DNA of 64,000 nucleotides from Pseudosulfitobacter pseudonitzschiae (lineage in GTDB: Bacteria > Pseudomonadota > Alphaproteobacteria > Rhodobacterales > Rhodobacteraceae): NCBI RefSeq assembly GCF_002222635.1, contig NZ_CP022420.1, forward strand, positions 62,001 through 126,000. Direction: 5' to 3'. The notes beneath the pieces were generated by a model that ran no database searches, was not told the origin of the DNA, and was given only the letters and a program-made list of their open reading frames with translations. The position numbers were made by a program, and so were the translations under genes. Below are positions 8,153 to 62,400 of the stretch, piece by piece; position 1 is the stretch's first letter, and every line of letters begins with the position of its first letter.

Positions 8153-9019
8153 TCAGTCGGACTCAAGTAGAAACTTGAAAAGCCGGGCCGCTGGGCCGGT
8201 CTCGGCGCTTGATGTGATTTGCGCGATGAAAAACTGCTTTCTCAAAGGCATTCCTTCGAGCCTTGCTCGTGCCAGCGAGCCCGAAGCAATTTCGCCTCGC
8301 ACCGCCGTCTCCAGCACGATGGACGCGCCCAGACCGGCGGCCACGCTGCGCTTAACTGCCTCGGTCGAGCCCACATTGCCGATGGTGTCGACATCTTCTG
8401 CTTGGGGCCCTAGTGCTTCTGTCAGAAGGGTGCCGGTCCCGCTGCCGCGCTCGCCGCCCAGCATCTTGAGCGTCTTGAGTTCGGCAAAGCTGATCTCTTC
8501 GCGCGTGGCAAGTGGATGATCGCTTGGCAGGATGACGATCATTTCATCGCTGAGCCAAGGAGCCACCGTTACGGCGGGGTGGGAAATTGGCCACTCCATC
8601 GCGGCGATGTCGATCTCTTCGGCCAGCAACATCTGCGCAACGCGAGGGTTTGGGGCTGAGATGACCTCCCATCGCATCTGCGATGATGTCTGTTTGAGAA
8701 AGGATGCCAGCGCATCCGGCATGAAGTATGATGCGATGTTGCCGCTGCACCCGATCTTGAGCGACTCGGATAAAACGGCGGCCTGTGCCCTTTGAGTGGA
8801 TGTAAGAATCTGCTGTGCATGTGGCAGGAGTCGCAGCCCGGCGTCGGTCAGGCGGCTGCCGCTATGGCTGCGCTGGATCAAGGGCGCGCCTAAGTCCTCC
8901 TCCAATTTCTTGATATGTTGCGACAGGGTAGGCTGCGCGATGCCGATCCGGACGGCGGCAGTCTGGAAGCTGCCGAGTTCGGCCAGCGCGACGAAGCTTT
9001 TGAGAACAGTCGGGTTCAC
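8153..9019 (-). CDS. ptxE: LysR-family regulator, probable phosphite regulator (PtxE-like)
   Basis: 288 residues. N-terminal winged HTH (LKSFVALAELGSFQTAAVRIGIAQPTLSQHIKKLE), then a LysR effector-binding domain. Its start overlaps the ptxD stop by 4 bp (ATGA), so the two are co-transcribed. In characterised phosphite clusters a LysR gene (ptxE) follows ptxD, and the position here is the same. It probably binds the divergent ptxD/ptxA control region, where inverted CGCAATAT repeats are seen. The symbol is based on context; the ligand is unproven. Confidence 0.78.
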   Translation of the reverse strand: MNPTVLKSFVALAELGSFQTAAVRIGIAQPTLSQHIKKLEEDLGAPLIQRSHSGSRLTDAGLRLLPHAQQILTSTQRAQAAVLSESLKIGCSGNIASYFMPDALASFLKQTSSQMRWEVISAPNPRVAQMLLAEEIDIAAMEWPISHPAVTVAPWLSDEMIVILPSDHPLATREEISFAELKTLKMLGGERGSGTGTLLTEALGPQAEDVDTIGNVGSTEAVKRSVAAGLGASIVLETAVRGEIASGSLARARLEGMPLRKQFFIAQITSSAETGPAARLFKFLLESD

Positions 9020-10011
9020 GTCTCGAGCACCTCGGGATTGACGGCGTGGCGCGGCCGCTTGCCAGAAAGAAAGGCGATGATCTCATCGGCGGCCTCGGCT
9101 GCAATCTGGCGGCGCACCTCGCTGACTGCCGATCCGATATGCGGTGTCAGAACCGTTTGGTCACAGGCGAGGAGCGCTGGATGAACTTGCCTTGGCCGAT
9201 CCGGGCGATGCCAATCCTCCATCTCGAACGTGTCCGCGGCATAGCCGGCAAGGCGGCCTGTGTTCAGCGCCTCCACGACGGCGGCCTCATCCACCAACGA
9301 TCCGCGCGCGGGATTGACCAGATAAGTCCCTTGTTTCATCGCTGCTAGAAAAGATACATTCACGATGTGCTTGGTCTGGTCCGTCAATGGCAGCGCAAGG
9401 ATGATGAAGTCAGACAGGCGGGTGAGATCATCGAGCGGAGCGTACTGCGCATCGAGAGCTTTTTCCGTCGTGGGGTCGAGGCGATTTTCGTCGAAGTAGA
9501 TGCGCCGGCCTCGAAAACCCGAAAGGAGCCGCATTGTCTCGCGGCCCACTGCACCGCCGCCGATGATGCCCACGGTCGCGCCTTGCAGGCTGCCACCATA
9601 AAAATTGGGCCGCCACCCGGCGAACGTTCCTGACCGTAGATGCGCGTCTCCCGCACGCATGTTCCGTGCGAGCGCAATGCTGAGGCCAATGGCCAACTCG
9701 GCCGTCGGCTCGGTCAAAAGGTTCGGAACATAGGTCAACAGCACCCTGGCATCTGTGCAGGCCCGCTGATCAAGATTATCGAAGCCTTTCAATGCGCCGG
9801 CAATAATCTTCAATTTGGGGCAGGCGTCCAGAAATGGGCGGTCGACGCACTCGGTCATGAAGGCCATCAACGCCGATGCATCCGCGCAAGCCGCACGCAA
9901 TTCGTCGTCGGCGAGTGGATCGCGCCCCTCGCTGGTCACGACATCCCCGTGCGCTGAAAGGCGTGCCAGCGTCTCATCTTCGATCCAGTTGGGCACTACA
10001 ATTTTGACCAT
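9016..10011 (-). CDS. ptxD: Phosphite (phosphonate) dehydrogenase
   Basis: 331 residues, D-2-hydroxyacid dehydrogenase fold. It matches PtxD closely in its diagnostic stretches: MAFMTECVDRPFLDACP, GALKGFDNLD, VPNLLTEPTAELAIGL, the substrate loop GWRPNFYGG, and GYAADTFEMEDWHRPDRPR. The Rossmann motif is GGGAVG (151-156), with acidic DEN at 174-176 favouring NAD+. Catalytic Arg236 (NPARG), the acid in FEMED (263-265) and His291 (TPHIGSA) are all present. It oxidises phosphite to phosphate with NAD+ in the cytoplasm. It starts at ATG 10011, divergent from ptxABC, and is followed by the LysR gene. Confidence 0.94.
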   Translation of the reverse strand: MVKIVVPNWIEDETLARLSAHGDVVTSEGRDPLADDELRAACADASALMAFMTECVDRPFLDACPKLKIIAGALKGFDNLDQRACTDARVLLTYVPNLLTEPTAELAIGLSIALARNMRAGDAHLRSGTFAGWRPNFYGGSLQGATVGIIGGGAVGRETMRLLSGFRGRRIYFDENRLDPTTEKALDAQYAPLDDLTRLSDFIILALPLTDQTKHIVNVSFLAAMKQGTYLVNPARGSLVDEAAVVEALNTGRLAGYAADTFEMEDWHRPDRPRQVHPALLACDQTVLTPHIGSAVSEVRRQIAAEAADEIIAFLSGKRPRHAVNPEVLET

Positions 10012-10132
10012 TATCCAACATCCTTAGCTGCGATTTTCCAATCACTAACAGCAAGGAACATATATCGCAATATGTAATAAAACTGTCATATATATTGCGT
10101 ATCAAAGAACTAACAGAAGGAGAATCGGTGCG
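10012..10132. promoter_or_regulatory. Divergent ptxD / ptxA control region
   Basis: 121 AT-rich bases between the two divergent ptx units. CGCAATATG (10066-10074) and ATATTGCG (10092-10099) form an inverted pair, a plausible LysR operator. ACATAT at 10059-10064 and ATATGT at 10070-10075 form a second small palindrome. A Pho-box-like half site CTGTCAT lies at 10083-10089, but its partner half is poor. AAGGAG at 10117-10122 serves ptxA. Confidence 0.6.
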
Positions 10133-10912
10133 ATGGATGGGTCAATGAGTATTATGGGACGTGATATTCTGAGCGTCGACGATGTCGAAGTCGTGTACCC
10201 GAACGGCACACGCGCACTCAATAAGACCACCTGCCAATTCATGGACGGGGAAGTGACCGTCCTTCTTGGTCCGTCGGGCGCCGGTAAGTCTACGCTTCTT
10301 CGCACTCTCAACCTGCTGACCCAGCCAAGCGCAGGACATATCGTGACATCGGCGGGCCAGCAGTTGAAGTCGCGCCGCGATATCCGGTTTCATCGGCGCG
10401 ACACCGCCATGATCTTTCAGCAGCACCAACTGATCGGCCGCCTGAGCGCTCTGCGCAATGTCCTCATGGCGCGTCTCGGTCGCCATTCTGTCTGGAGCAG
10501 TTTGGCAGGCTTTTCGCGCGCCGAGAAACACCTTGCGCTGGAATCTCTCAGCCGCGTGGGCCTCTTTGACAAGGCGCTGACACGCTGTGACAGCCTTTCG
10601 GGTGGCCAGCAGCAGCGCGTCGGCATTGCGCGCGCGCTCACGCAGGAGCCAAAGCTGATCCTCGCGGACGAGCCTATCGCATCGCTCGATCCAGCATCTT
10701 CGGACCGGGTGATGAAAATCCTCCGCGACGTATGCCGCGAAGACCGAATTCCCGTCATTGTCAGCCTTCACCAACTCGATTTTGCCAAGGCCTATGCCGA
10801 TCGCATCATCGGCCTCTGTGATGGTGACATCGTTTTTGACGGACCGCCCTCGGCACTGGATAACGCCGCGCTGTCGCGCATCTACGGCGCGCCGGCCGAT
10901 ACGACCAACTGA
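10133..10912 (+). CDS. ptxA: Phosphite ABC transporter ATP-binding protein
   Basis: 259 residues, PhnC-type ATPase: Walker [10 protein letters not shown] near residue 46, Q-loop, signature LSGGQQQR, Walker B LILADEP, and the switch His in VSLHQLD. It powers import by PtxBC at the inner membrane. ATG 10133 has AAGGAG ten bases upstream. The downstream spacing to ptxB is 23 bp. The assignment to phosphite rather than phosphonate rests on the adjacent ptxD and on the order ATPase, binding protein, permease seen in ptxABCD loci. Confidence 0.9.
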
Positions 10913-10935
10913 TCTTTCAACTCTTGGAGACTGCC

Positions 10936-11811
10936 ATGAAGAATATCGCAACTCTCACCGCCATGCTGCTGGCCTCAACAGCCGCATTCGCAGCAGGCGA
11001 TTATGATCCGGACACTTTGCGCGTCGCGCTGCTTCCTGATGAAAACGCCTCGACCGTGATCCAGGATAACAAGCCGCTGGCCGCGTATCTTGAAGAGAAG
11101 CTCGGCAAGGATATCGAACTGATCGTCACGACCGATTACTCTTCGATGATCGAGGCGATGCGCTTTGGCCGCGTGGATGTCGCGTATTTTGGGCCGGCCT
11201 CCTACACCATCGCCAAGGCCAAGATGGCGGATGGCGATCTGGACATCGAGCCGTTCGCCGCGCGCGTGACGGATGGAAGCACCACCTACCAGTCTGTCCT
11301 CATTGCCAATGTCGAAAGCGGTATCGACTCGATCGACGATATCGAAGGGTCGGGCATCGATGTGGCTTTTGGCGATCAGGCATCCACCTCGAGCCACTTC
11401 GCGCCGAAATACACGATGATGCTCGAAGGCGTGACGGAGGGCGATGACTATACCCAGAACTTCACGGGCGCGCACGACGCGGTGGCGCGCAACGTCGAGC
11501 TGGGCAATGCCGCTGTCGGCGGTCTGAGCCGTCCGATCTACGAGAGCCTGCTGGCCAAGGGGTCGGTTGATGCATCGAAGCTGATTGTCATCGGTTACTC
11601 CGCCGATATCCCACAATATCCTTGGGTTATGCGCACCGACATGACCGAGGCGCTTGAAGACTCAATCAAGGACGCCTTCCTGACGCTGGAGCCAGGGACC
11701 GACGCGGGCGATGCAGTCCTGACGCCGTTCAAGGCCGACGGGTTCGCAGCAATCACGGATGCCGACTACGACATCATCCGTGACATCCGCAAGAACCTGC
11801 AAGCCGACTGA
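10936..11811 (+). CDS. ptxB: Phosphite-binding periplasmic protein
   Basis: 291 residues of the PhnD/PtxB family. Signal peptide MKNIATLTAMLLASTAAFAA; then LRVALLPDENASTVIQDNKPLAAYLEEKLG; ligand-loop motifs YFGPASYTIAK, and FGDQASTSSHFAPKYTM, which supplies the Ser/Thr-rich oxyanion-binding turn. YSADIPQYPW near the C-terminus resembles PtxB proteins. A TTG at 10926 is in frame, but the ATG at 10936 has GGAG at proper distance. It captures phosphite for PtxAC. Confidence 0.9.
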   Translation: MKNIATLTAMLLASTAAFAAGDYDPDTLRVALLPDENASTVIQDNKPLAAYLEEKLGKDIELIVTTDYSSMIEAMRFGRVDVAYFGPASYTIAKAKMADGDLDIEPFAARVTDGSTTYQSVLIANVESGIDSIDDIEGSGIDVAFGDQASTSSHFAPKYTMMLEGVTEGDDYTQNFTGAHDAVARNVELGNAAVGGLSRPIYESLLAKGSVDASKLIVIGYSADIPQYPWVMRTDMTEALEDSIKDAFLTLEPGTDAGDAVLTPFKADGFAAITDADYDIIRDIRKNLQAD

Positions 11812-11835
11812 GAATGCCCGAACTAGGAGACCGCC

Positions 11836-12660
11836 ATGACCCGCCTCTTGACTGCCCAGCCTGCGCTGACCAACGCTGAAGATGTGCTGGCCGAGGACAG
11901 CAAGGGGCGGCGAAAGCTGCTCCTTCAAATCGCCGTAGTCGCCGCGATCGTCATTGTATCGCTATGGATGACCGGGATGCTAGATCGGAGCCGGTTGACC
12001 AGCGGCTTGCCGGCTATCGGTATCCTCGGCACTGAGATGTTCCCGCCGGATTTCGGCCGTTGGCGCGACTGGGTAGGACCCCTTGTCGAGACGCTGGCTA
12101 TGTCTATCGCCGGCACGGCGCTGGCGGTCGCTCTCTCTTTGCCACTGGGCTTCTTGGCCGCACGGAACACATCGCCCAACAAGGTTATCTACCAAGTCTC
12201 GCGGGTCGTCCTGAATACGCTTCGCTCGATCCCAGAATTGATCATGGGTATAATTTTCGTTGCAGCTGTAGGGTTTGGCATGTTGCCTGGTGTTTTGGCC
12301 CTTGGCCTCCATTCGGTTGGAATGGTCGGAAAATTCTTTGCGGAGGCCATCGAGCACGCGCATCCTGCACCGATTGAAGCGACCGAGGCGTCAGGAGCCA
12401 CGTCAATGCAAGTCATCCTGCATGGCGTCCTGCCTCAAGTCTTTCCGCAATTCGCAGATGTGAGCATGTATCGCTGGGAATATAATTTTCGAGCCTCGAC
12501 CGTCATGGGTATGGTTGGTGCAGGCGGTATCGGCACTGAGCTCGTCGGCTCGCTCCGCCTTCTGGACTACCCACAGGTGTCAGCGGTTTTGCTGGTCATC
12601 CTCGCCTGTGTGACCGTTGTGGATATACTCAGCAATATGCTCCGTGCGAAGTTCCGGTGA
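11836..12660 (+). CDS. ptxC: Phosphite ABC transporter permease
   Basis: 274 residues, PhnE-type permease with about six membrane helices and the BPD_transp EAA-like loop (EATEASGATSMQVILHGVLPQVFPQF). A GGAGA ribosome-binding site precedes ATG 11836. It forms the membrane channel for the PtxA/PtxB pair. It is last in the ptxABC unit and is followed by a hairpin at 12676-12707. Confidence 0.9.
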   Translation: MTRLLTAQPALTNAEDVLAEDSKGRRKLLLQIAVVAAIVIVSLWMTGMLDRSRLTSGLPAIGILGTEMFPPDFGRWRDWVGPLVETLAMSIAGTALAVALSLPLGFLAARNTSPNKVIYQVSRVVLNTLRSIPELIMGIIFVAAVGFGMLPGVLALGLHSVGMVGKFFAEAIEHAHPAPIEATEASGATSMQVILHGVLPQVFPQFADVSMYRWEYNFRASTVMGMVGAGGIGTELVGSLRLLDYPQVSAVLLVILACVTVVDILSNMLRAKFR

Positions 12661-12731: not shown

Positions 12732-13740
12732 CAGCTTGTTGCATGGGTCAAAATATGGGTGCAGGCGCCCCTTTCCCCGAACGACTATGCGGCACGTTTG
12801 AAGACCGCATGACCGAGGCGGGTCATGCGGTTGAGGGTCTTTGTGGCGCCCGATCTGGGCTTCGACGAGGGCTCTGCGATTGTATCCCGTTGCTGACTAC
12901 CCTGCCATTCGGCCATGCTCGGCGATATGCTCTATGTGAGCGTTGCGCCCATCGCGTAGGCCGGGAACAGCGGTAATTAGTGGCGGGATGGTGATCTCGA
13001 CATCGGGTCAGAACTTTTGGGTCAAGCAATCGGAAACTACGGTGCCATCATAAGCGGCGTCCGCCAGAACGCGGGTCACCTGGCTTGCGATCCCCACGAT
13101 GAGGTCGGGCAAGGCGGTTTCGTCGCCGATCTGGTCTGTGGTCAACAGTGAGGCGACGATCTCACCGCTGTCCGGGTCATACCCGATGTGCAGTTGACGC
13201 CAGGATTTGCGGGTCTTTCACGTGCCATGCTTTTCGTCCTGCCAGCCCGAACCGCGATGGATCTTCAGGCCTGTGCTATCCACGATCAGCGTGGTGGGGC
13301 CACTGGATTGTGGCCTTTCGTCCACGACCGAGAGGTCAATCGCCCGCCGCGATAAGGTCGAGAAGTCTGGAACCGGCAACTCCACGCCCATCAGTCCAAG
13401 TAGCGACCGGACGAACTCTTGGGTCTGATGCAACGGCTGGTGAAAGATCAGCCCCCGCGTCAGACACGTCTCAATCGCGAAGTCCGAATATTTTGGCTGA
13501 CCACCGCGACCCTTTCGCTTCGGCGCTGACCATCGCCCGGCAGCCCCGGCCTCAAGCCAGATCGTAACGTCTCCGCGACGGCGCAGAGCCTCGTTGAAAT
13601 CCGACCAATTCGTCACCGTGTATTTCGCCTTGGAAAACTTATCGCGTCGACCAGCGTTGAATATATGCGGCATAGGGCGCTACCTTGAGGATATCAGAAC
13701 CGGCGTCTTCGCCAAAATCCGCGACCCATGCAACAAGCTG
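12732..13740 (-). mobile_element. Decayed IS5-family element
   Basis: About 1 kb between perfect 18-bp inverted repeats (CAGCTTGTTGCATGGGTC at 12732-12749, inverse at 13723-13740). It contains a broken transposase gene. The right end touches the stop codon of the neighbouring TIM-barrel gene at 13741, so that gene's tail may have been redefined by the insertion. No target duplication is recognised. Confidence 0.75.
12785..13673 (-). pseudogene. IS5-family transposase, degenerate
   Basis: The N-terminal half (TVTNWSDFNEALRRRGDVTIWLE, then PVPDFSTLSRRAIDL and LIVDSTGLKIH) matches the IS903-group DDE transposase found intact at 20157-21089. It ends at an in-frame TGA (13220-13218). The frame continues as KTRKSWRQLHIGYD to a second stop near 13013. 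The final C-terminal piece (GHAVFKRAA, stop 12787-12785) is one base out of phase. Two nonsense codons plus a frameshift make it non-functional. Confidence 0.8.
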
Positions 13741-14556
13741 TCAAATCACCACACCAAGATCACTCAGCGCGCGAAATCCCTTCGGAATGTCCGCATTATC
13801 ACGCAGTTCCAGCACGAGGTGCGGGTCGCTTTCGCAAGCAGCCAAGGCACGGAAGACAGCTGTCCATTCGATTTCCCCTTCCCCCGGGGCCCAGTGGCGG
13901 TCGGCATGGCCATCGACGTCTTGCAGGTGGACATGGGCAAGCTGCGCACCGGCATCAGTGATAAAGTCAGCGACGGGTGGGGCGCCAGACATGCGACGGG
14001 CTAACTGAGCGTGCCCGGTGTCGATGGAAAGTGCGATTGCTTGTGAGCCAAAGCCATCCACCATCGCGCGACGTGTTTCTGGGCGAACGTCCTGAATGTT
14101 TTCGATCACAAGAGTGATGCCCATGTTTTCGGCTGCGCGCACGACGGGGTCTAGAATTTGATGGATGCGGCCAATCTTGCTTTCGGCGTAGCCCGGAAAG
14201 CTGAAGAAGTTGTTCTGATACCAAGCCGTGTAAGGGGAATGCAGGACCATCTGGCGCGCGCCGATCCGATCCGCGGCCTCGAGAGCTTTGAGGAACCGCG
14301 CAGTAATGATCGGGCGCAGTTCCGAGTCTTTGTTGTCGATATCCAGACCTTCAAAGGGCCCATGAATGCCAAGGCGTCCAGTATGCCCATCAAGCGCCGT
14401 CTTGGCGGCGGCAATGCGATCGTCGAATCCGGTGGTTAGCGCGACATGGGACATGAAATCCTGTAGTTCGATATCGCGGGCGGCATCAAACAGCCAATCG
14501 CGGTGGTCTGCAATCTCAGATGTTTTCAGGCAGGCGCCTATTTTGAGCGGGGTCAT
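13741..14556 (-). CDS. Sugar phosphate isomerase/epimerase-like TIM-barrel protein
   Basis: 271 residues of the AP-endonuclease-2 / xylose-isomerase-like TIM-barrel superfamily. Strand motifs include LGIHGPFEGLDI, MVLHSPYT, LVIENIQDVRP (likely metal Glu), ALSIDTGHAQLA, LAHVHLQDVDGHADRHWAPGEGEI and LVLELRD. Such proteins bind a divalent metal and act on phosphosugars, polyols or phosphoester substrates; the actual reaction is not known. ATG 14556 lies 41 bp inside the MFS gene and gives the normal N-terminus MTPLKIGACL. It is last in the seven-gene operon, and its stop abuts the decayed IS, so a few terminal residues may not be native. Confidence 0.75.
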   Translation of the reverse strand: MTPLKIGACLKTSEIADHRDWLFDAARDIELQDFMSHVALTTGFDDRIAAAKTALDGHTGRLGIHGPFEGLDIDNKDSELRPIITARFLKALEAADRIGARQMVLHSPYTAWYQNNFFSFPGYAESKIGRIHQILDPVVRAAENMGITLVIENIQDVRPETRRAMVDGFGSQAIALSIDTGHAQLARRMSGAPPVADFITDAGAQLAHVHLQDVDGHADRHWAPGEGEIEWTAVFRALAACESDPHLVLELRDNADIPKGFRALSDLGVVI

Positions 14557-15754
14557 GTCTGTGGGTCCTTGGGTCGGGAATAAACATATAGGTAGCGATG
14601 GCACAGCAAAGACACAGGGCCATGACAGCAAAAGACCACCAGCCGCCGTAGGTTTGTGTGGTCCATGCAAAAGCAAAAGGGGCGGAGGCGTTGATCCCCA
14701 TTTGCACGAAGGAGATCCACCCCAGTCGTGCACCGTAACCTTTGGTACCGAATAGCGCCAAAGGCAGGGTACCGCGCGCGATGGTTTTGATCCCGTCGCC
14801 CATTCCGTAAAGTGCGGCCGCAAGCAGTAGTCCAGTTAACGTAAATCCGAAGATCAACAGGACGACAAAGCCAGAAAACATCAGGCCGAGGCTAAGCGCA
14901 TAGGTCACCAATGGGTACATGCTGCGACTGACCAACATCTCAAAAAACCGGCCCACGGTTTTGAACGGGCCGATGACGGCACCGGCGAAGGCTGCCATGG
15001 CTGCCGTATGGCCCAAGTCCTGAACATTGGTCACCCAAAGTGTCATAACAGCGCCCATCAGGTAGCCTGAAAAAACGAAAGAAACGACCATCCACAACAT
15101 TGCCTGCTTGCGCAGGTGCCCGGTCAGTTCGGGCCAGTCCGGCGCATTGTCAGGTTTGGGTGCATCGGCCTCGCGTTCAGGCCCGCGCAAGACAAAGAAG
15201 TGGATCGGTGTGCATATCAGCAAGGCACTGAAGCCGAGGATCACCCATGTTGTTTCCCAACCGTACCAATTAAACAGCGCGAGAGTCAGCGGCCAGAAAA
15301 TAGTCGAGGCGACCCCGCCAAACAGCGTGATGACAGAAATCGAGCGTTGCGGCGGAACGCCTAGATCCAGTCGCGCCACACTGGCAAAGGCTACATTATA
15401 CAGCACGAACATGCCCGCGCCTTCGGCCACCAGGATCAGCACAAATAACCCGATCCGCCCTTCAATTTGGCTCATCGCCATCAGCGCAAGGCTGGCCACG
15501 ATCGAGCCCAGTGTCATCACCCAGCGACCGCCACAGTGGTCCACCAGTTTTCCGGCAATGGGTGAGACCAGGCCGCCAAAGAAAAGGCCCAGCGACAGAA
15601 TACCGAATACCTCTGACAGGGTCAGTCCAAGATCCCTTGCCATTTCTGGTAAGAGCACCGCATAGGCGTACATCAACGTCCCGTACCCCATGATCTGGGT
15701 TACGCCGAGTCCAATGGCAGGAATATAATCGCGGTTCGGTCTTGGCAGGTTCAT
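14516..15754 (-). CDS. MFS transporter
   Basis: 412 residues with about 12 hydrophobic segments and the MFS loop 2-3 pattern GLVSPIAGKLVDHCGGRWVM. It resembles the oxalate/formate-antiporter-like and OFA-like branches in general form, but the substrate is not recognisable. Its ATG (15754) overlaps the phnM-like stop by 4 bp, so translation is coupled. In this operon it could import an organic substrate or export a product made by the methyltransferase and amidohydrolase. Confidence 0.8.
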   Translation of the reverse strand: MNLPRPNRDYIPAIGLGVTQIMGYGTLMYAYAVLLPEMARDLGLTLSEVFGILSLGLFFGGLVSPIAGKLVDHCGGRWVMTLGSIVASLALMAMSQIEGRIGLFVLILVAEGAGMFVLYNVAFASVARLDLGVPPQRSISVITLFGGVASTIFWPLTLALFNWYGWETTWVILGFSALLICTPIHFFVLRGPEREADAPKPDNAPDWPELTGHLRKQAMLWMVVSFVFSGYLMGAVMTLWVTNVQDLGHTAAMAAFAGAVIGPFKTVGRFFEMLVSRSMYPLVTYALSLGLMFSGFVVLLIFGFTLTGLLLAAALYGMGDGIKTIARGTLPLALFGTKGYGARLGWISFVQMGINASAPFAFAWTTQTYGGWWSFAVMALCLCCAIATYMFIPDPRTHRHDPAQNRRLPENI

Positions 15755-16956
15755 CCAGCCGGTATACCGCGATAGGCGCAACGGCCCGCAACCCATGTCC
15801 CCTGAATGGCTGGGACAGAGCCGTCGGGCCAATCCACCAGAACAAGGTCTGCGCGCTTACCAACAGTGATGTCGCCCCGGTCGGGCAAACCCATTGCGCG
15901 TGCGGGGCCAGATGAGACGAGCGACCAAAGCGCAAGGCGATCCGCGCGGCGCTCTGCGTCAAGCTTGGCAATTGCGGCCAGCATGGCGGGGTAGAAATAA
16001 TCCGAAGCTAGCGCATCGCACAGACCGGCCTCCACCATGTCACCCGCACCAAGCGAGCCTATATGGCTCCCTCCACGGGCGGCATTCGGCGCGCCAAAGA
16101 CTATCGGATCACCACCTTTGCGGGCCGCTTCTGCTGCCTCCATCACCATCGGAAATTCCGCCACTCCTGCGCCAAGCTCGCGGAAATAGGCGCGGGTTTC
16201 CGCCCGTGTATCATCGTGGCTTAGCATGGGCGCTCCTGCTGTACGGGCCATCTGTGCAACCGATGCGATCGCGTCGGGCACCTCGCTGCGCCGATCCCAG
16301 ACGTGGCCCAGGAGCGCGATATAGTCTTCCTCGCTCAGCCCTGCGCGATGGGCTTTGGAAGCGGTGCGCTTTTTCATTCGCGCGTCGTCTAAAGAGGCGA
16401 TTGAAAAATCCGGGGACAGCTCAAAAGCGCGGTCCTGAATTGGGACGTCATAGGCCCTCATGGTCATGGACGTGTGGTCATTGAATGCCACGGAAGGCAA
16501 TAGTGGCCCCGCAAGCGCCCATTCGATCACGTCCAAAGCCTCGAACGCGAAGGTTTCCCACCGAAGCTGCACCCGGTTTTCCACGGTCAGCCGCGCGGCC
16601 AGATCGCGCATGGCTTGCATGAGTTCGCGGCCGCGTGCCACATCGCGCAACCCCGGCTCCCATCCCAGCGTTATGGCGTGATAAGCGGTGGCAATCCCGT
16701 TGGTTGCAAGTTGACGGTCAGTGTCGATGAGCGCCGTTTCGGTTGGGAAGAAAACCCCTGGACGGGGCATCAGCTGGCGTTCGAACGCATCGCCATGTAC
16801 GTCGATCAGGGCAGGGGCCAATATCAATCCACGTGCGTCGATCACCTCGCCTTGCGCGCGGCCACCTAATTCGACGATCTTGCCATTGCTAATGGCAACA
16901 GTCGTCTCAGTGATCTCGCCGGGCAGGTAGACTTGTGCGCCTTCAAAGGTAATCAT
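15751..16956 (-). CDS. phnM: PhnM-family amidohydrolase
   Basis: 401 residues. It aligns by eye with PhnM (alpha-D-ribose 1-methylphosphonate 5-triphosphate diphosphatase). Matching motifs are LILAPALIDVHGDAFERQLMPRPGVFFP (metal His/Asp), SVAFNDHTS, MLSHDDTRAE, VAEFPMVMEAAEAARKGG, GAPNAARGGSHIG, ASDYFYPAML, and the C-terminal GDITVGKRADLVLVDW. In the C-P lyase pathway PhnM removes pyrophosphate from the ribosyl triphosphate intermediate. No PhnGHIJKL is in the window, so this copy may act on a related substrate in a different route. It begins immediately after the methyltransferase stop. Confidence 0.85.
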   Translation of the reverse strand: MITFEGAQVYLPGEITETTVAISNGKIVELGGRAQGEVIDARGLILAPALIDVHGDAFERQLMPRPGVFFPTETALIDTDRQLATNGIATAYHAITLGWEPGLRDVARGRELMQAMRDLAARLTVENRVQLRWETFAFEALDVIEWALAGPLLPSVAFNDHTSMTMRAYDVPIQDRAFELSPDFSIASLDDARMKKRTASKAHRAGLSEEDYIALLGHVWDRRSEVPDAIASVAQMARTAGAPMLSHDDTRAETRAYFRELGAGVAEFPMVMEAAEAARKGGDPIVFGAPNAARGGSHIGSLGAGDMVEAGLCDALASDYFYPAMLAAIAKLDAERRADRLALWSLVSSGPARAMGLPDRGDITVGKRADLVLVDWPDGSVPAIQGTWVAGRCAYRGIPAG

Positions 16957-17601
16957 TCAAAGTCTTTCCATTGTCAGATGCCAGTGGAAAGACCCCGGCT
17001 TTTCGTGTTCACGGTCGTCAAGCTTCAGGCATTCAAAGCCCGAAAACAGGGCCAACAGATCTGCCGCCGCGCAAAAGTAATGCGGGTGCATTTTGTCCGT
17101 ACCGGGCGCATCAAAAACCCATGCGTTGCGGCTGATTTCACGACCTGCGTATTTTGCCTGCTCATGCGGCAGGCGACGTTTGGACAACATAGTCCCCATA
17201 AAACTGCCGCCGGGCTTCAGCACGCGACGAATTTCGGCAATTGTGCGCAGCAGGATATCTTCGTCGCCATGGTAGATCACGTTCCAGCTGAGCACGTGGT
17301 CAAAGGCGTGATCCTTGAACGGCAGCGCATCCATGCGGGCCAGAACTGTTTCTACGCCACCGGCCTTTTCAATCTCTGCCAACCCGTCGGGCGCGGCATC
17401 CAACGCGATCATGTCAAAGCCCTGGGATGCCAGCCAAAGTGCGTGACGCCCCACGCCCGCCCCCAGATCAAGAATGCGTGCGCCTTGTGCCAGACCAGCC
17501 GCCCATTCTTGCACGTCCTTCTCTGGCGTCAGCCACTTGCTATCTTCTTCGATGGATTTCCATTGGTCATTCCAATGCTGGTCAGCTGTATCCGATTTCA
17601 C
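16957..17601 (-). CDS. Class I SAM-dependent methyltransferase
   Basis: 214 residues. Rossmann-fold methyltransferase with motif I ILDLGAGVGRHALWLAS, an acidic end to strand 2 (MIALDAAPDG), motif IV-like VLSWNVIYHGDED and LRRVLKPGGSFMGTML. These are the features of TehB/UbiE-type small-molecule methyltransferases. It is translationally coupled to the upstream permease (4-bp overlap) and directly followed by phnM. A role modifying an imported phosphorus or other oxyanion compound is inferred from position only. Confidence 0.8.
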   Translation of the reverse strand: MKSDTADQHWNDQWKSIEEDSKWLTPEKDVQEWAAGLAQGARILDLGAGVGRHALWLASQGFDMIALDAAPDGLAEIEKAGGVETVLARMDALPFKDHAFDHVLSWNVIYHGDEDILLRTIAEIRRVLKPGGSFMGTMLSKRRLPHEQAKYAGREISRNAWVFDAPGTDKMHPHYFCAAADLLALFSGFECLKLDDREHEKPGSFHWHLTMERL

Positions 17602-18416
17602 CGTTGTTCTCCAATAATTTTAGTGCGGGCCCAGCCGCTGACGAGCTCGATCCCGATCACAACAACTGCGATCATCAAGATCACGGTCATCGCTGTGGGG
17701 TAATCGAAAAGGTCAAAACCAACTTTAAGCTCGATCCCAATCCCACCCGCACCGACAAGGCCAAGGATAGTCGACGACCGGACGGCTTTCTCCAAGGCAA
17801 AGAGAGAGGTGGAAATAAAAGCGGGCAGGCTGCCGGGAATCGTGGCACAGGCCACAACATCGAGTTTTCGCGCGCCAGTGGCTGTTAGGCTCTCGGCGGG
17901 GCCTTTGTCGGTTGCTTCCATGTCGTCGGCGAAAAAGCGTCCGCAAAAGCCGATTGTGTCGATCACGATGGCCAGCATGCCGGCAAAGGGACCAAGGCCC
18001 ACGGCCACAACGAAAACCAGTGCCCAGGCGATGTCCGGCACAGCACGGATGAAACTCAGCCCGGTGCGCACAATTTGGTTCACCCATGGGCCGGCGATCA
18101 GCCCCTTTGCCGCCAAGAGGGCGACAGGAACAGATATGATTACCCCGATCACAGCACCGGCAACAGCGATTTGCAGTGTCTCGACCATTTTCCAGCCCAG
18201 CCGCGTGAGGACTTGTGGGTCAAGGTTCGGCGGGAAGGCCCGCGCGGCGAAATCGGCAAAGCGGGGTGGGGAGCTGGCTACTTTTTCAAGCGAGAAGCCG
18301 GCACCGGCGAGGCACCAGAAGATAATAACAAGTCCAAGCGCATAGCCCAAAAAACTGATGGCAGAGGGCCGCTCAAACCGCGCCAGTTCAAATCGCGAGG
18401 GGGTGGTATCAGTCAT
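17598..18416 (-). CDS. phnE: PhnE-like ABC transporter permease
   Basis: 272 residues, about six membrane helices. It contains the EAA-like loop of PhnE permeases (ESLTATGARKLDVVACATIPGSLPAF) and the C-terminal GLVGAGGIGIELKVGFDLFDYPTAM. It overlaps the ATPase gene by 8 bp and the methyltransferase by 4 bp. It forms the channel for the second phosphonate/phosphite-type importer of the window. It is clearly distinct from ptxC, so the two systems probably prefer different ligands. Confidence 0.88.
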   Translation of the reverse strand: MTDTTPSRFELARFERPSAISFLGYALGLVIIFWCLAGAGFSLEKVASSPPRFADFAARAFPPNLDPQVLTRLGWKMVETLQIAVAGAVIGVIISVPVALLAAKGLIAGPWVNQIVRTGLSFIRAVPDIAWALVFVVAVGLGPFAGMLAIVIDTIGFCGRFFADDMEATDKGPAESLTATGARKLDVVACATIPGSLPAFISTSLFALEKAVRSSTILGLVGAGGIGIELKVGFDLFDYPTAMTVILMIAVVVIGIELVSGWARTKIIGEQR

Positions 18417-19227
18417 AAAGACCTCTCAGATCGGCGGAACTCAGCGAGGCTGCTGTCGCATCAAGCTGAATGCGCCCCTGCGCAAGGCCAAGCACGCGGT
18501 CGCCGTATTTCAATGCATGTTCAACGTTGTGCGAGGTAAAGACGACCGTCACATTCTCGTCGCGGACAAGCCGGAAGAACAGCTCCATCACGTCTTCGCC
18601 TGCACTTGGATCAAGTGACGCGCAAGGTTCATCCGCAAAGAGAACCTTGGGCGCGCCGACGATGGCGCGGGCAATGGCCACGCGTTGCGACTGCCCGCCC
18701 GATAGCCGATCCGCGCGCCGGTGCGCGAAATCAGCAAGGCCCACGCGTTCCAACGCCTGCATGGCAGTTTCCCGAGAAGACTGGGGGGCTAGCGGATGGC
18801 TCCAATGGCGTATGCCGGGATGCTTGCCTAGAAGACCGTGCAAGACATTTGAAAGCACAGACAGTCGGGGCACCAGATTGTGCTTCTGAGAGACCAACCC
18901 GACCTGCGCGCGAATGTTGCGCATCTGGCGCCTGGTTGCTTCATCTGTCTGCTGTCCCAGCAAATGCACGCTGCCACCTGAGGTTGGGATTAACCCCATC
19001 AGGCAGCGCAGCAGGGTCGATTTCCCAGTGCCGTTGGCACCAACAAGTGCTGTCGCCTCTCCGCGGGCGAGGCGGAAACTCACGTCGGAAAAGATCGGCG
19101 TCGCCCCAAAGGTTTTGGAAACGGCGCGGGCTTCAATTTCAACGGGCGAAACCGGGGCGAAGGCCGCCCCGGTTTGCTCAGTCAGCACATCCGGGGCCAC
19201 CGGACGTCTCAGTAGAAGATCAGTCAC
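18409..19227 (-). CDS. phnC: PhnC-like ABC transporter ATP-binding protein
   Basis: 272 residues from GTG 19227, which overlaps the stop of the binding-protein gene by 8 bp. The frame is open upstream, but those residues are antisense shadow of phnD. Walker A is VGANGTGKST, signature LSGGQSQR, Walker B VLFADEP, and the switch region has FTSHNVEHALKYGDRV. Walker A carries Asn-Gly-Thr-Gly rather than the common Ser-Gly-x-Gly. It energises import with the neighbouring phnD and phnE. Confidence 0.88.
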   Translation of the reverse strand: MTDLLLRRPVAPDVLTEQTGAAFAPVSPVEIEARAVSKTFGATPIFSDVSFRLARGEATALVGANGTGKSTLLRCLMGLIPTSGGSVHLLGQQTDEATRRQMRNIRAQVGLVSQKHNLVPRLSVLSNVLHGLLGKHPGIRHWSHPLAPQSSRETAMQALERVGLADFAHRRADRLSGGQSQRVAIARAIVGAPKVLFADEPCASLDPSAGEDVMELFFRLVRDENVTVVFTSHNVEHALKYGDRVLGLAQGRIQLDATAASLSSADLRGLYD

Positions 19228-20089
19228 CGATGAAATCGTCGAACTGAGGGTATCCCGCATTCGAATACATCGAGCGGACGTAGTCATATGCGCTGTCTTC
19301 AATCGCAACGAGGTCCATGCCGACATATTTGTCGTTTTCTTCGTGGGCCGTGATGCCTGCGATGACCTGCGCCTTGTTCCCAAGGACCGCGTCTCGCAGT
19401 GCTTCGGCAGCCTTGGTTGGCACATGTGCACCCACCATGATCATGTCATTGGGCAGGTCGCCCGAGCGCGCAATCATCTTGTAAAAACCGTAAGGCAGCT
19501 CCGTTTGGCCATTGCGGACGCCGATGAAAGTGCCTGCATTCATGCCAAGCGCGTCGATATCGCCGTTGTTCAACGCCTCAAAGGCGATGTTGCGCGAGGT
19601 GTGGATTTTCTCAATGTCATTAACCGGATCGACGCCGTAGTCTGCGAGTACCTGCATCGGGCAAAGCATGTTTGAAGTCGAACCGATATCGCCAAATGCG
19701 ACTGATTTGCCTACCAGATCAGCAGGTACGTTGATGCCGCTGTCAGCACGCACGATAATGGCACAGTGATAATCGGGGCGACCGAGGCCGATCAGCGGCG
19801 TGGCATTGGTCAGCTTGTTGAAAACCACATATTCTGCAGGTCCAGAGACTACAAAATCCACGGTCTCACCGCGCAGCGCCTCGGCTGCAGCCGTGCGCGA
19901 GTTTACGGCAAAGAATTCGAATGTGTCGCCGGTGGCCACTTCAAGCGCCTCCTTGAAGGGACCCCATTCCAGTTGCAGGCGTTCCATGCCTTCGACATCT
20001 GTGACGGCAAGTTTCCAGATTTCTGCTGTCGCTGCAAAGGCAGACACAGCAGCAAGGCTTACACCCAGCAAAAGAGATTTCAGTTTCAT
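19220..20089 (-). CDS. phnD: PhnD-like periplasmic binding protein
   Basis: 289 residues. Signal peptide MKLKSLLLGVSLAAVSAFAATA; then EIWKLAVTDVEGMERLQLEWGPFKEALE; ligand motifs VDFVVSGPAEYVVFNKL and VAFGDIGSTSNMLCPMQVLADYG, which provide the Ser/Thr oxyanion-binding loop of the PhnD/PtxB family. It differs strongly from ptxB (291 residues, different pocket sequence). It is the first gene of the seven-gene leftward operon. Its GAGGG ribosome-binding site lies within the target duplication of the IS903-group element inserted at 20103. Confidence 0.87.
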   Translation of the reverse strand: MKLKSLLLGVSLAAVSAFAATAEIWKLAVTDVEGMERLQLEWGPFKEALEVATGDTFEFFAVNSRTAAAEALRGETVDFVVSGPAEYVVFNKLTNATPLIGLGRPDYHCAIIVRADSGINVPADLVGKSVAFGDIGSTSNMLCPMQVLADYGVDPVNDIEKIHTSRNIAFEALNNGDIDALGMNAGTFIGVRNGQTELPYGFYKMIARSGDLPNDMIMVGAHVPTKAAEALRDAVLGNKAQVIAGITAHEENDKYVGMDLVAIEDSAYDYVRSMYSNAGYPQFDDFIGD

Positions 20090-20102
20090 AGCACCCTCTA
20101 GG

Positions 20103-21153
20103 GGCTCTGTTGCACAAATCGGCTGAGGGTCGAGGTTCCCCTTCCCCCGGACAGACTCATCCCACGGCTTCAGTGACGGGTATGCCGAGTGCGGTGAAGC
20201 CGTTCAGGACGACCACACGGATCTGAAACTCGGCAACCTGACGGTCGAAGTCCCTGGCAGTCAGGCGTTGGCCCAGCAGCTTCACACAATGCATCTTCGT
20301 TTCGACGCGGCTCCGGCGGTGATAGCCGCTCCATCGTCGCCAGATGTTTCGCCCGAAGCGACGTGACGCGCGCAGGGCTTCGTTGCGCGCGATTGCTCCG
20401 GGAGTGTCGGGCTTCCATGGCCTGGCATTTTTGCGTGGCGGTATGACTGCGGCGGCACCTCGGGCGGCGATGGCATCGTGGCACTTGCGGGTGTCAAAGG
20501 CACCATCAGCGGTGACGCTTGCAACCTCGTGATCTGGCGGGATCTGGTCCAGAAGCTCTGGCAGCATGGGCGCGTCACCGACATCACTGGTGGTGAACTC
20601 GGCCGCGCGTATTTCCAGCGTTTGCTCGTCAATTCCGATGTGGATCTTGCGCCAGACCCGGCGCTTGGTGCCACCATGCTTGCGGGCGTTCCACTCCCCT
20701 TCGCCCTCGACCTTGATGCCGGTGCTGTCGATCAGCAGGTGCAACGGGCCGCCGGATCCACGGTAGGGAATATTGATCTTCAGGGACTTCTGGCGCCGCG
20801 ACAGCGTGCTGAAGTTGGGCACGGTCCAGTCCAGGCCGGTCAGGCGCAGCAGGCTCTCAACGAAGCCCGTCGTCTGCCTGAGCGCCATGCCAAACAGCAC
20901 CTTCATCGTCAGGCAGGTCTGTATGGCTGCGTCACTATAGTCAGGCTGTCGGCCACGTTTGCCTGTTGGCCTGGCCTCCCAGGTCATCTCGGGATCGAAC
21001 CAGATCGTCAGCGAGCCACGACGCTTCAGAGCTTCGTTATAGGCGGGCCAATTCCTGGTCTTGTAGGCGGGGGGGCTGGGTCGGCTCATGCGCCCCCAGC
21101 TACCACGCTGGATTCACAAGATGAATCCCTCACGCGATTTGTGCAACAGAGCC
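20103..21153 (-). mobile_element. IS903-group (IS5 family) element with intact 9-bp target duplication
   Basis: A 1051-bp element bounded by inverted repeats starting GGCTCTGTTGCACAAATCG (20103) with the perfect inverse ending at 21153. It is flanked by identical 9-bp duplications CCCTCTAGG at 20094-20102 and 21154-21162. The duplication contains the Shine-Dalgarno of phnD (read leftward, CCTAGAGGG). The insertion therefore separates the phnD operon from its upstream promoter but keeps the ribosome-binding site. The perfect duplication argues for a recent event. Confidence 0.93.
20157..21089 (-). CDS. IS5-family (IS903 group) transposase
   Basis: 310 residues. DDE transposase with TRNWPAYNEALKRRGSLTIWFD, VPNFSTLSRR, LLIDSTGIKVEGEGEWNARKHG (first Asp), ASVTADGAFDTRKCHDAIAARG (second Asp) and the C-terminal YHRRSRVETKMHCVKLLG carrying the catalytic Glu in the Y-R-E arrangement. 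It appears intact and sits within perfect terminal repeats, so it should be active. Confidence 0.92.
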   Translation of the reverse strand: MSRPSPPAYKTRNWPAYNEALKRRGSLTIWFDPEMTWEARPTGKRGRQPDYSDAAIQTCLTMKVLFGMALRQTTGFVESLLRLTGLDWTVPNFSTLSRRQKSLKINIPYRGSGGPLHLLIDSTGIKVEGEGEWNARKHGGTKRRVWRKIHIGIDEQTLEIRAAEFTTSDVGDAPMLPELLDQIPPDHEVASVTADGAFDTRKCHDAIAARGAAAVIPPRKNARPWKPDTPGAIARNEALRASRRFGRNIWRRWSGYHRRSRVETKMHCVKLLGQRLTARDFDRQVAEFQIRVVVLNGFTALGIPVTEAVG

Positions 21154-21162
21154 CCCTCTAGG

Positions 21163-21290
21163 TTTATTCATTCGGATGAATAGTGGGACTGCGTATCAAT
21201 GGCGCTACAGTTTCATGAAACCTTTGTGACGTATGCGGCCGAGACGGCGCGGATGGGAAGTACTAAGTTTATTTACCATAAACTTCATTA
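21163..21290 (-). promoter_or_regulatory. Displaced promoter/operator region of the phnD operon
   Basis: This segment lay directly upstream of phnD before the IS insertion. It holds a 7-bp palindrome TATTCAT-tcgg-ATGAATA at 21165-21182. A second palindrome AAGTTTA/TAAACTT is at 21265-21285. Read leftward, CGTCACA-AAGG-TTTCATG near 21212-21229 has the 7-4-7 spacing of a Pho box but only partial consensus. Any of these may be operators; none is proven. Confidence 0.4.
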
Positions 21291-59479: not shown

Positions 59480-62400
59480 TCAGCACCCTCCACGCGCATG
59501 TAGTCCTGTCACGGGACAACGTGCAAGCAGACGATCAAGCACTGCGATGCCGCTCGAGTCCGCTGGGCAGAAGAGCCGCAGCTTCCAGGCGATGATCTCC
59601 GAGAAGAACCCATCTGCCTTGAGCCGGTCCTTGGCGGCACCCAAAAAGCCCGACAGCTCGATCCGGTTGACGCCCATAACGCGCGAGCGGTGCAGCTCCA
59701 TCCCTTCGGCCAAGCGCACGACCGTCTTGCCTTCCAGAACAAGGGCATGGACCTGCGCCGCCGTGAGCTTCGGAGCATCGGCGGCAAGTGTGGTCGCGAC
59801 CCACGACGGCGAAACGCGGCGACCGATGATGCGCTGACCGTCATCGGTCTGCAGCCGGTAGACGCGGGTTTCATCCTGGGGGAGCTGCTTCCAGATCGGC
59901 AGCAAGAGGCCCGCCACGATATGCAGGGTGGTTTCCGAGAACTCCGGCACTTCAGCCAGTTCTGCCCTCCAGGCTTCATTGAAGGCCGCGCGGTCGGCTT
60001 CGAGCCAATGGGTGTCGTCCATGATCTTGGCCGGAACCGTGCTCGCCTCCAGCGGGCGGATCAGCCGCAGGCGGGGTTCGATGGTGCCATCGTCCAGCAT
60101 CAGGCTGGTCGCGGGCACCTGCACGGCAGCCCGGCCCGAGCGGCTGTTGACCAGTAGCCGCGCCTTTGGGTCATCGAGCCAGTCGAGCGCATCCGCCAGT
60201 GACAGCGGTGTATTGCGCTGCTTTTGCGCGATGCTCAGCAGCTGGGTTTCCGCGCCGGAGCCGGGATGGGTGTAAATCACCCGCGCATCTGTGACGCGGA
60301 AGCTCTCGGCGCGCAGCGTCTCAAGCCCGAGGTCGTAGACCCCGGCGGCGATAGCGCCCTCGATCCGTTGGTCGAGGAGTTCCTCAAAGGCCGCGAAGAG
60401 TACAGCCTGCATGTCGATTGTGAGCGCCAGCAGGCGATTGAGGAAGGTGGTGATCGGCGGCAGGTCATCCTTCAGACCGTTGTCATCAGTCAGGCTGAGG
60501 CCGGTCGCATCCTCAAACGCCCCGAGCGAGCAGCCCGCAACATCACCGCGATAGAGGCGGCGGTAAAGCTGGCGCAGAGCGTCGCGGGCATAGGGGGACT
60601 CGAGATTGTCCTCGGGCCGGAACAGCCCCTGCCCGCCGGTTTGACGCTGGCCGCGCGTGATCGCCCCGAGCGTGTCGAGGCGACGCGCGATGGTGCTGAG
60701 GAAGCGTTTCTCTGCTTTCACATCGGTAGCAACGGGCCGGAACAGCGGTGGTTGCGCCTGGTTGGTGCGGTTGGTGCGGCCCAGTCCCTGAATGGCCGCA
60801 TCGGCCTTCCAGCCCGGTTCCAGGAGGTAGTGGACCCGCAGGCGCTGGTTCTTCGCCCCGAGATCGGCGTGATAGCTGCGCCCCGTGCCGCCGGCATCCG
60901 AGAAGATCAGGATGCGCTTCTGGTCATCCATGAAGGCGGCGGTTTCCGCGAGGTTGGCAGAGCCCGCCCGGCTTTCCACGACCAGGCGGGCGGCAGCACC
61001 CTCGCCCTTCCTCACAATGCGCCGCGAGCGTCCCGTGACCTCGGCCACGAGATCGGTGCCGAAGCGCTGGACGATCTGGTCAAGCGCGCCGGGCACAGGC
61101 GGCAGGCTTGCCAGATGCTCGATCAGCGCATCGCGCCTGCGCGCAGCTTCGCGACATTCCACCGGCTGGCCGTCGCGCGTGACAGGCCGCGAGGAGAGGT
61201 TGCCTTCGCTATCGGTGAAGGGCTCGTAGAGCTGCACCGGAAAGGAATGCTGCAGATAATCCAGGCAAGCCTCTCTTGGCGTGATGTCCACCCGCACATC
61301 GTTCCACTCGTCCGTGGGGATGTCCGACAGGCGGCGCTCCATCAGCGCCTCGCCCGTCGAGACAATCTGGATGACGGCCGCGTGGTCTGCGGCGAGATCG
61401 GCGTCGATGGCGGCGATCAGCGTGGGAGTTTTCATCGAGGTCAGCAGATGGCCGAAGAACCGTTGCTTGGCGGACTCGAAAGCCGAGCGGGCGGCGGACT
61501 TGGCCTGGCGGTTCAGCGTACCGCCGGATTCGCCAGTAATGTTGGCCGCTTCCAGCGCCGCGGACAAGTTCCGATGTATGACTCCGAAGGCGAGCGCATA
61601 TGCATCATAGATCCCGCGCTGCTCCGGCGTCAGCGCATGTTCCAGCATCTCGTATTCGACGCCGTCATAGGACAGCGAGCGCGCCGTGTAGAGGCCAAGC
61701 GACCGCAGATCGCGGGCCAGGACCTCCATCGCGGCAACGCCGCCAGCTTCGATAGCTTGCACAAATTCCGCCCGCGTCGAAAACGGAAAGTCTTCGCCCC
61801 CCCAAAGCCCAAGCCGCTGCGTATAGGCGAGGTTATGGACCGAGGTCGCCCCCGTGGCCGAAACATAGACCATGCGGGCATTCGGAAGTTTGTGCTGCAG
61901 GCGCAGACCCGCCCTGCCCTGCTGCGAGGCCGTGACATCGCCGCGCTCACCCTTGCTTCCTGCGGCATTCGCCATGGCATGGCTTTCGTCAAACAGGATC
62001 ACCCCGTCAAAATCCGCCCCAAGCCAGTCGACGATCTGATCGACGCGGGATTTCCTGGCGCCCCGCTCCTCGGAGCGCAGCGTGGCATAGGTGGTGAAGA
62101 GGATGCCTTCGGTCAGCGGGATGTCTTTGCCTTGCGCGAAGCGCGACAGCGGCGTCACCAGCAAGCGTTCCTGTCCGAGTGCGGACCAGTCGCGCTGCGC
62201 ATCCTCCAGCAGCTTGTCGCTTTTGGAGATCCAGAGCGCTTTGCGCCGACCCTGCGCCCAGTTGTCGAGCAGGATGCCGGCGGACTGGCGGCCCTTGCCC
62301 GCCCCGGTGCCATCGCCAAGGAAGAAGCCGCGGCGGAAACGGACGGCGTCAGCGGCATCGTCCGGCGCGGCCGAGACCATGTCGCCGGTCTCATCGACGG

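Follow-up and report, generated by a model that had tools for sequence, protein, structure and literature searches.

Organization and gene families of the operon

Seven leftward open reading frames (ORFs) occupy positions 13741–20089 of the window, the 64,000-nucleotide stretch of Pseudosulfitobacter pseudonitzschiae DNA analyzed here (positions 62001–126000 of the 142-kb contig C6, in a genome of 5.12 Mb). They encode a PhnDCE-type ATP-binding cassette (ABC) importer (D2C2E2), a class I methyltransferase (MT), a PhnM-like amidohydrolase (M2), a major facilitator superfamily (MFS) carrier and a triose-phosphate isomerase (TIM) barrel protein (Table 1). An earlier reading of the window from its letters alone (the original prediction) had described seven leftward genes with overlapping or abutting ends, and the ORF coordinates bear this out: overlaps measure 8 bp (D2/C2 and C2/E2), 4 bp (E2/MT and M2/MFS) or 41 bp (MFS/TIM), and MT abuts M2. 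Simple pairwise counts against the copy of Planktotalea arctica (locus L019) give ratios of non-synonymous to synonymous substitution rates (dN/dS) of 0.03–0.22 in six of the genes, low values that indicate more than a chance ORF array, and 0.52 in the TIM gene (9 synonymous and 15 non-synonymous changes).

Table 1. Features of the operon and its upstream region, in window coordinates. The start codon of C2 was chosen by a codon-usage caller.
Feature	Position	Strand	Remarks
phnD-like periplasmic binding protein (D2)	19220..20089	-	289 aa; Pfam Phosphonate-bd 129 bits
phnC-like ABC ATPase (C2)	18409..19227	-	272 aa; ABC_tran; GTG start
phnE permease (E2)	17598..18416	-	272 aa; TIGR01097 263.2 bits
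Class I S-adenosylmethionine (SAM)-dependent methyltransferase (MT)	16957..17601	-	214 aa; GTG start; Methyltransf_25 64.4 bits (also Methyltransf_11)
PhnM-like amidohydrolase, 'FNDH' subgroup (M2)	15751..16956	-	401 aa; NF011987 361 bits
MFS carrier, ArsK-like	14516..15754	-	412 aa; MFS_1 91.2 bits
AP_endonuc_2 TIM-barrel protein (TIM)	13741..14556	-	271 aa; PF01261 96.7 bits
IS5-family insertion sequence	20101..21155		~1,055 bp; splits operon from promoter; homology with L019 broken there
Palindromic operator TTCATTCGGATGAA	21167..21180		Displaced from operon by the insertion sequence; sole exact TTCATYCGRATGAA site in the genome
Pho-box-like 11-bp direct repeats of native promoter	21204..21231	-	Reads GTCACAAAGGTTTCATGAAACTGTAGC on the - strand

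The family names originally given were right in kind according to Pfam and NCBIfam models, but D2 and M2 are divergent and fall below the PhnD and PhnM equivalog cut-offs (D2, 75.5 bits vs 261.1 for TIGR03431, and also under the TIGR01098 cut-off; M2, 290.1 bits vs 390.55 for TIGR02318). C2 is likewise below the PhnC equivalog (TIGR02315; 241.2 bits vs 266.1), and E2 exceeds that for PhnE (cut-off 216.7 bits). M2 passes the subfamily model NF011987 (cut-off 253 bits) and retains intact amidohydrolase motifs of the metal site (HxD, H161, SHDD and SDY), with H54, D56, H161, H247, D248, D249 and D319 invariant in an alignment of 38 sequences that includes canonical PhnM. The H-x-PG-x-RQ (PGQ) loop of 12 canonical PhnM is not conserved in 87 M2 sequences, which carry FNDHxS instead. 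Its AlphaFold model is confident (predicted local distance difference test (pLDDT) score 94.5); the structural matches listed are generic amidohydrolases of 12–17% identity that do not indicate a substrate, and no solved PhnM homologue was matched at an E-value of 0.001.

Additional PhnM proteins have been encountered before. Second phnM copies outside the operon were noted by Lockwood et al. (2022), in the portion of that work available. The available part of another report describes a Rhodobacteraceae fosmid (B3_TF_MPn_2) that carries an extra phnM1 of undefined role in a C-P (carbon-phosphorus) lyase cluster, with particular marine phosphonates suggested (Martinez et al. 2013, PMC3840354). 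Like M2, phnM1 is a second PhnM-like hydrolase adjoining a working C-P lyase cluster; the fosmid differs in having phnE2 and a hexapeptide transferase, with no methyltransferase reported in that part. The two are likened by description, and phnM1 could belong either with M2 or with a sister clade represented by loci L119 and L017. In a quick PhnM tree, which joins the two long branches L119 and L017, M2 groups with another extra PhnM located beside the canonical cluster of L119. The L017 branch, long and beside M2, is a third PhnM-like gene of the window genome (C1:2439202-2440230; L017 9154-10293), to which no recognized phn genes are adjacent within the stretch read.

Recurrence of the gene set and its association with C-P lyase

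PhnGHIJKL are absent from the window but present elsewhere in the genome, which contains a canonical PhnJ (class a; C1:571963) and a divergent one (class b; C6:40173), each within a full phnG-M cluster with its own phnM (C1:568725 and C6:42579). The cluster on C6 ends ~30 kb from the operon. The original description of an operon without C-P lyase therefore holds inside the window only and is an effect of its borders, because both clusters lie elsewhere in the genome. Its premise that PhnM works here without PhnGHIJKL falls in view of these two complete clusters and of the presence of PhnJ in nearly every genome with M2 (see below). A C-P lyase cluster lacking its own phnM had been named as grounds for abandoning the operon reading; both clusters have one, and the reading survives. 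The class b cluster (C6 ~36.9-47.6 kb; L014 12865-19999 and L015 1-3566) comprises a GntR regulator, phnGHIJKLM and a different ABC importer, and its PhnJ keeps all four canonical cysteines, with 46% identity to the class a PhnJ of the same genome.

The gene set recurs across marine relatives. Scanning genome contigs for M2 yielded 193 related loci, and among the called genes of the best 80, M2 was present in 75, a complete D2C2E2 in 48, MT in 42, TIM in 35 and MFS in 25. These counts are lower bounds, with many loci stopping at contig edges; in addition, the gene caller, whose training set was these very families, overlooked AT-rich loci (e.g. L052, L054, L056, L057 and L117, recovered by tblastn). 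Based on these frequencies, the conserved core is D2C2E2-MT-M2, with MFS and TIM optional, and the expectation that the genes stay together across genomes is upheld. The core is also found in single cells labelled SAR116, Rhodobacteraceae or alphaproteobacterial (L054, L056 and L057), in which M2 has 78–79% and the importer 43–49% identity.

Presence of the core is closely associated with that of C-P lyase. In a survey that took one genome per genus (296 genomes of Rhodobacteraceae), the M2 clade was delimited at >=53% identity, with a gap before the next match at 266 bits; co-occurrence was read by eye from tables and Fisher tests were applied to those counts. M2 occurs in 35 genomes, 34 of which have PhnJ, compared with 117 of the 261 others (P = 4e-10) and 151 of the 296 overall. 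MT is present in 23 genomes, and all except one of these (22/23) also have M2.

In relatives, the phn clusters that adjoin the operon are of two kinds. Class a is the canonical arrangement (phnGHIJKLN, DUF1045 and phnM), which in L019, L020, L023 and L058 is situated directly upstream of the operon and in other loci not far from it. The class c clusters are full phn operons encoding a hexapeptide transferase, two PhnE, PhnD, PhnC, PhnM, PhnL, PhnK, PhnJ, PhnI, PhnH, PhnG and PhnF, and are mostly divergent in orientation from the seven-gene operon. Among the 80 loci, phnI, phnJ or phnK of class c is found in 25, of class a in 12 and of both in 3; all three modules come together in L058 and share one contig in genomes G283 and G073. 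The class c PhnJ is present in 18 of the 296 family genomes, 13 of which have M2, and it lies within ~11 kb of M2 in 11 of these 13. In L093, M2 is embedded between phnJ and phnM.

A shared operator and Pho-like repeats

A palindrome, TTCATYCGRATGAA (TTCAT-YCGR-ATGAA), first spotted by reading upstream regions, precedes both the seven-gene operon and the class c phn operon. With at most one mismatch, 64 sites occur in 2.06 Mb of loci, where equal base frequencies would predict ~4.5; almost every site precedes either D2 or, in class c, phnC or the regulator gene. At this threshold the palindrome is found at 28/48 promoters of D2, 17/29 of class c phnC and 11/13 of class c PhnF (the 13 include one probable unrelated GntR, L055:18128), compared with 0/27 of class a. 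Both class c regulators tested pass the PhnF model, and we infer that this protein binds the palindrome; from these upstream regions, the operon appears to share its switch with the class c phn operon. A two-unit pattern of 11-bp repeats, which we take to resemble the Pho box, is likewise present in 24 of the 48 D2 upstream regions, vs 0.5 expected from shuffles.

Proposed role and ligand

The operon is best interpreted as a satellite module, under Pho and PhnF control, of the Rhodobacterales C-P-lyase-type phosphonate pathway that would import and process a phosphonate-like compound, a reading to which we assign a probability of roughly 0.6. Conservation, linkage, co-occurrence, the common operator, the Pho-like repeats and the intact hydrolase motifs are the observations that carry it, and the chemistry is proposed from them. 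According to the available part of the literature, the canonical C-P lyase pathway is encoded by phnCDEFGHIJKLMNP (PMC10574752). The operon resembles it in its PhnCDE-type importer, PhnM-type hydrolase, PhnF/Pho-type control and link to phnGHIJKLM, but differs in the absence of phnG-L, the loss of the PGQ loop from M2 and the additional methyltransferase, MFS carrier and TIM barrel.

Homology and promoter motifs suggest that, upon phosphate shortage and relief of a PhnF-type repressor, D2C2E2 would import a phosphonate-like, non-phosphite compound. This compound would then enter a PhnGHI ribosylation route, supplied by a C-P lyase cluster located at another place in the genome or, for many relatives, by the adjacent class c complex, whose PhnJ lacks three of the four canonical cysteines. 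M2, predicted to be metal-dependent and with its altered substrate loop, may act on an intermediate of ribosyl-phosphonate type poorly handled by the canonical enzyme; MT may methylate the substrate or the leaving group. Among the optional components, the MFS carrier could transport a product and the TIM-barrel protein could mediate sugar-phosphate isomerization or phosphoester cleavage. The pathway of import, methyl transfer and hydrolysis first envisaged for the operon thereby keeps its conserved gene set and a probably distinct ligand, and loses the premise of a PhnM without C-P lyase. As that prediction had it, no described pathway with this gene set was found in the parts of the literature searched, which covered few subscription journals.

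Several observations weigh against this role. The window genome has neither the class c PhnJ nor the class c PhnF, and the partner complex here would therefore have to be class a or b. No PhnJ was found in genome G084 (in 480 contigs), which has D2C2E2-MT-M2. The parts of the operon are separable: no MT was detected in 13 of the 35 genomes with M2, and G152 has D2C2E2-MT but not M2. In addition, the insertion and sister-plasmid deletions described in the final section argue that the window copy is dispensable. The locus of G152 (L117; G152:C3:138000-157000) belongs to a 2.1-Mb genome and has a canonical phn cluster, with D2C2E2-MT several kb downstream and M2 not present.

The ligand of D2 probably differs from that of the second, phosphite-type importer in the window, as originally suggested. 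The nearest solved structure to D2 is PtxB, a weak homologue (E 4e-14), and the phosphite importers PtxABC and HtxBCDE have binding proteins of the same family. PtxB, however, has a tyrosine cap, and the D2 segment aligned with it contains no aromatic residue (by sequence alignment, with PtxB numbering not fixed). As the aromatic cap is missing in this alignment, the ligand is likely larger than phosphite. Phosphite itself is an unlikely ligand given the non-aromatic segment, which was mapped by sequence only. A different precedent is GpxBCD, a PhnT-family importer of Rhodobacterales that, in the part of its description available, transports glycerol-1-phosphate and not a phosphonate (PMC12718374); the main text of that description has neither a methyltransferase nor phnM. 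Among the solved structures, the one organophosphate-type candidate is 9lf9, which carries no label beyond phosphonate-binding protein and is a weak match to D2 (E 1e-4). The phosphite-type genes lie at window positions 8153-12660 (a LysR gene, a 2-hydroxyacid dehydrogenase gene and the second phnCDE-type importer), and are called phosphite-type and ptxD-like by context only.

The remaining genes bear on an arsenic analogue as the ligand, which the original prediction had allowed for. In an arsenic module, D2C2E2 or the MFS carrier would move an arsenical, MT would methylate it and the ArsK-like carrier would export it. The closest curated model to the MFS protein is indeed that of the arsenite efflux carrier ArsK (NF033733), and MT weakly resembles enzymes of the TehB/ArsM type. 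The carrier nonetheless scores 287.8 bits against a cut-off of 400 and is among the called genes of just 25 of the 80 loci, while MT reaches 25–28 bits against arsenite methyltransferase models with cut-offs of 240–575. The neighbours are phosphonate genes, and the promoters are of PhnF/Pho type. An arsenic role, considered for the ArsK-like carrier, was rejected as the principal explanation on the score and rarity of that protein and is very improbable. The AlphaFold model of MT (pLDDT 90.0) matches generic class I methyltransferases that do not indicate a substrate; H111, H172, H174 and C177 are invariant in 34 sequences, and phosphoethanolamine methyltransferases are among the weak sequence matches, though these were not used as evidence. 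The TIM-barrel protein is below the CbiR phosphodiesterase model (NF041277; 33.9 bits vs 105), and its nearest solved structures, TTHB071 and MJ1311, are both named as uncharacterized.

A PhnJ clade lacking three of the four canonical cysteines

The most novel lead, though not in the window genome, is the lyase complex of class c. In the available parts of the literature, three cysteines of Escherichia coli PhnJ bind an iron-sulfur cluster and Cys272 is catalytic (PMC7916636, PMC11978286). When aligned to Cys241, Cys244, Cys266 and Cys272 of that protein, all 42 class c sequences lack cysteines 2–4 and keep the first (one ends before the fourth), whereas all four cysteines are kept in 13/13 class a sequences and in the single class b sequence. 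The alignment comprised sequences >180 aa, with some genomes entered twice (e.g. L114/L127 and L115/L128). Class c PhnJ genes are found at L046:19669-20634 (-), L033, L059, L099-L116, L126-L128 and L134-L136. Two tested class c proteins pass the Pfam PhnJ model (383 and 387 bits), and the one tested against NCBIfam matched no model. The clade is under purifying selection (median dN/dS 0.086 vs 0.060 for class a; pairs with dS 0.1-2, <=16 sequences per gene), and the H-x-KLPHY histidines are retained in class c PhnI. A single clear class c match emerged from 386 alphaproteobacterial genomes, in G186, itself a member of Rhodobacteraceae; 29/29 other PhnJ matches read (L138-L166, including the class b protein of the window genome) keep the cysteine motif, and two further matches were not read. 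In the parts of the literature searched, with few subscription journals covered, no description of a cysteine-less PhnJ was found.

These features raise an alternative in which the operon serves mainly the cysteine-less complex. A ribosylated compound would undergo heterolytic cleavage of a P-X bond, with its 2'-OH expelling X to leave cyclic ribose phosphate, and MT and M2 would prepare or clear the X side. The palindrome common to both operons, the adjoining position of class c, the retained PhnI histidines and the selection on a PhnJ devoid of three cysteines are consistent with such a process. PhnN and the DUF1045 2H phosphoesterase are thought to act downstream of cyclic ribose phosphate. 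In G068 and G264, which have class c and no class a PhnJ, a PhnN above its cut-off and a DUF1045/2H phosphoesterase adjoin the class c genes, and this suggests that class c may also feed into cyclic ribose phosphate, although both could be left over from a class a cluster since lost. Moreover, class c PhnJ is missing from 22 of the 35 genomes with M2, and M2 from 5 of the 18 with class c. On balance, it is unlikely, with less than half the weight given to the satellite role, that the operon serves mainly this complex. Slightly less probable again is the fuller proposal that the regulon with the cysteine-less complex assimilates a phosphonate-like compound without radical chemistry, in which PhnI would ribosylate, the P-X bond would break heterolytically and D2C2E2-MT-M2 would supply import, methyl transfer and extra hydrolysis.

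If true, assimilation of this kind would be a new way of taking phosphorus from organic compounds. Under the satellite role, D2C2E2-MT-M2 and the shared operator provide a defined gene set for an unassigned marine phosphorus substrate. There are also implications for environmental surveys: in the available parts of the literature, C-P lyase is held to yield much of the methane derived from marine phosphonates, and phnJ or phnM is used as the marker (PMC6852614, PMC9381506). Such markers would also score a PhnJ devoid of the radical-SAM cysteines, and an additional PhnM clade, as C-P lyase, yet these proteins may perform other chemistry.

An IS5 insertion and the state of the window copy

In the window, the operon is separated from its conserved promoter by an IS5-family insertion sequence (IS) that the original prediction missed. 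The element ends ~10 bp upstream of phnD, has a transposase ORF at 20157-21089 (-) and is flanked by a direct repeat of CTCTA (20096-20100 and 21156-21160); the segments 13741-20102 and 21150-21245 align to neighbouring stretches of L019. As the element has cut the operon from its promoter, the window copy is, judging from the sequence, probably either not transcribed or driven by the IS, and heading to loss. Three sister plasmids bear the same IS; all that is left of the operon there is a 3' end of 933 bp in Thioclava nitratireducens, 933 bp in Sulfitobacter pontiacus and 456 bp in Sulfitobacter sp. On the simplest account, the IS inserted once and deletions next to it followed, the window representing the undeleted state.

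A serious alternative, with a little less than an even chance, is that the plasmid operon is a decaying piece, acquired from a Planktotalea-like locus, with no current role. The position of the IS between operator and operon, the remnants on the sister plasmids and the higher dN/dS of TIM all point this way. All seven frames are intact, however, dN/dS is low in the other six genes (a divergence that may be mostly older than the insertion), and an IS promoter could drive the operon. Such a fate for this copy is compatible with the satellite role proposed for the family as a whole.

The phosphite-type importer and dehydrogenase genes (9016-12660) form a cluster that is kept on the sister plasmids that lost the operon, and the two annotations read, those of the Thioclava and Sulfitobacter sp. 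plasmids, place phosphite-type genes next to the IS and operon remnant. Homology with Planktotalea stops at 13741, and a remnant of a second IS5/IS1182-type transposase (12790-13673) marks the downstream edge of the operon.

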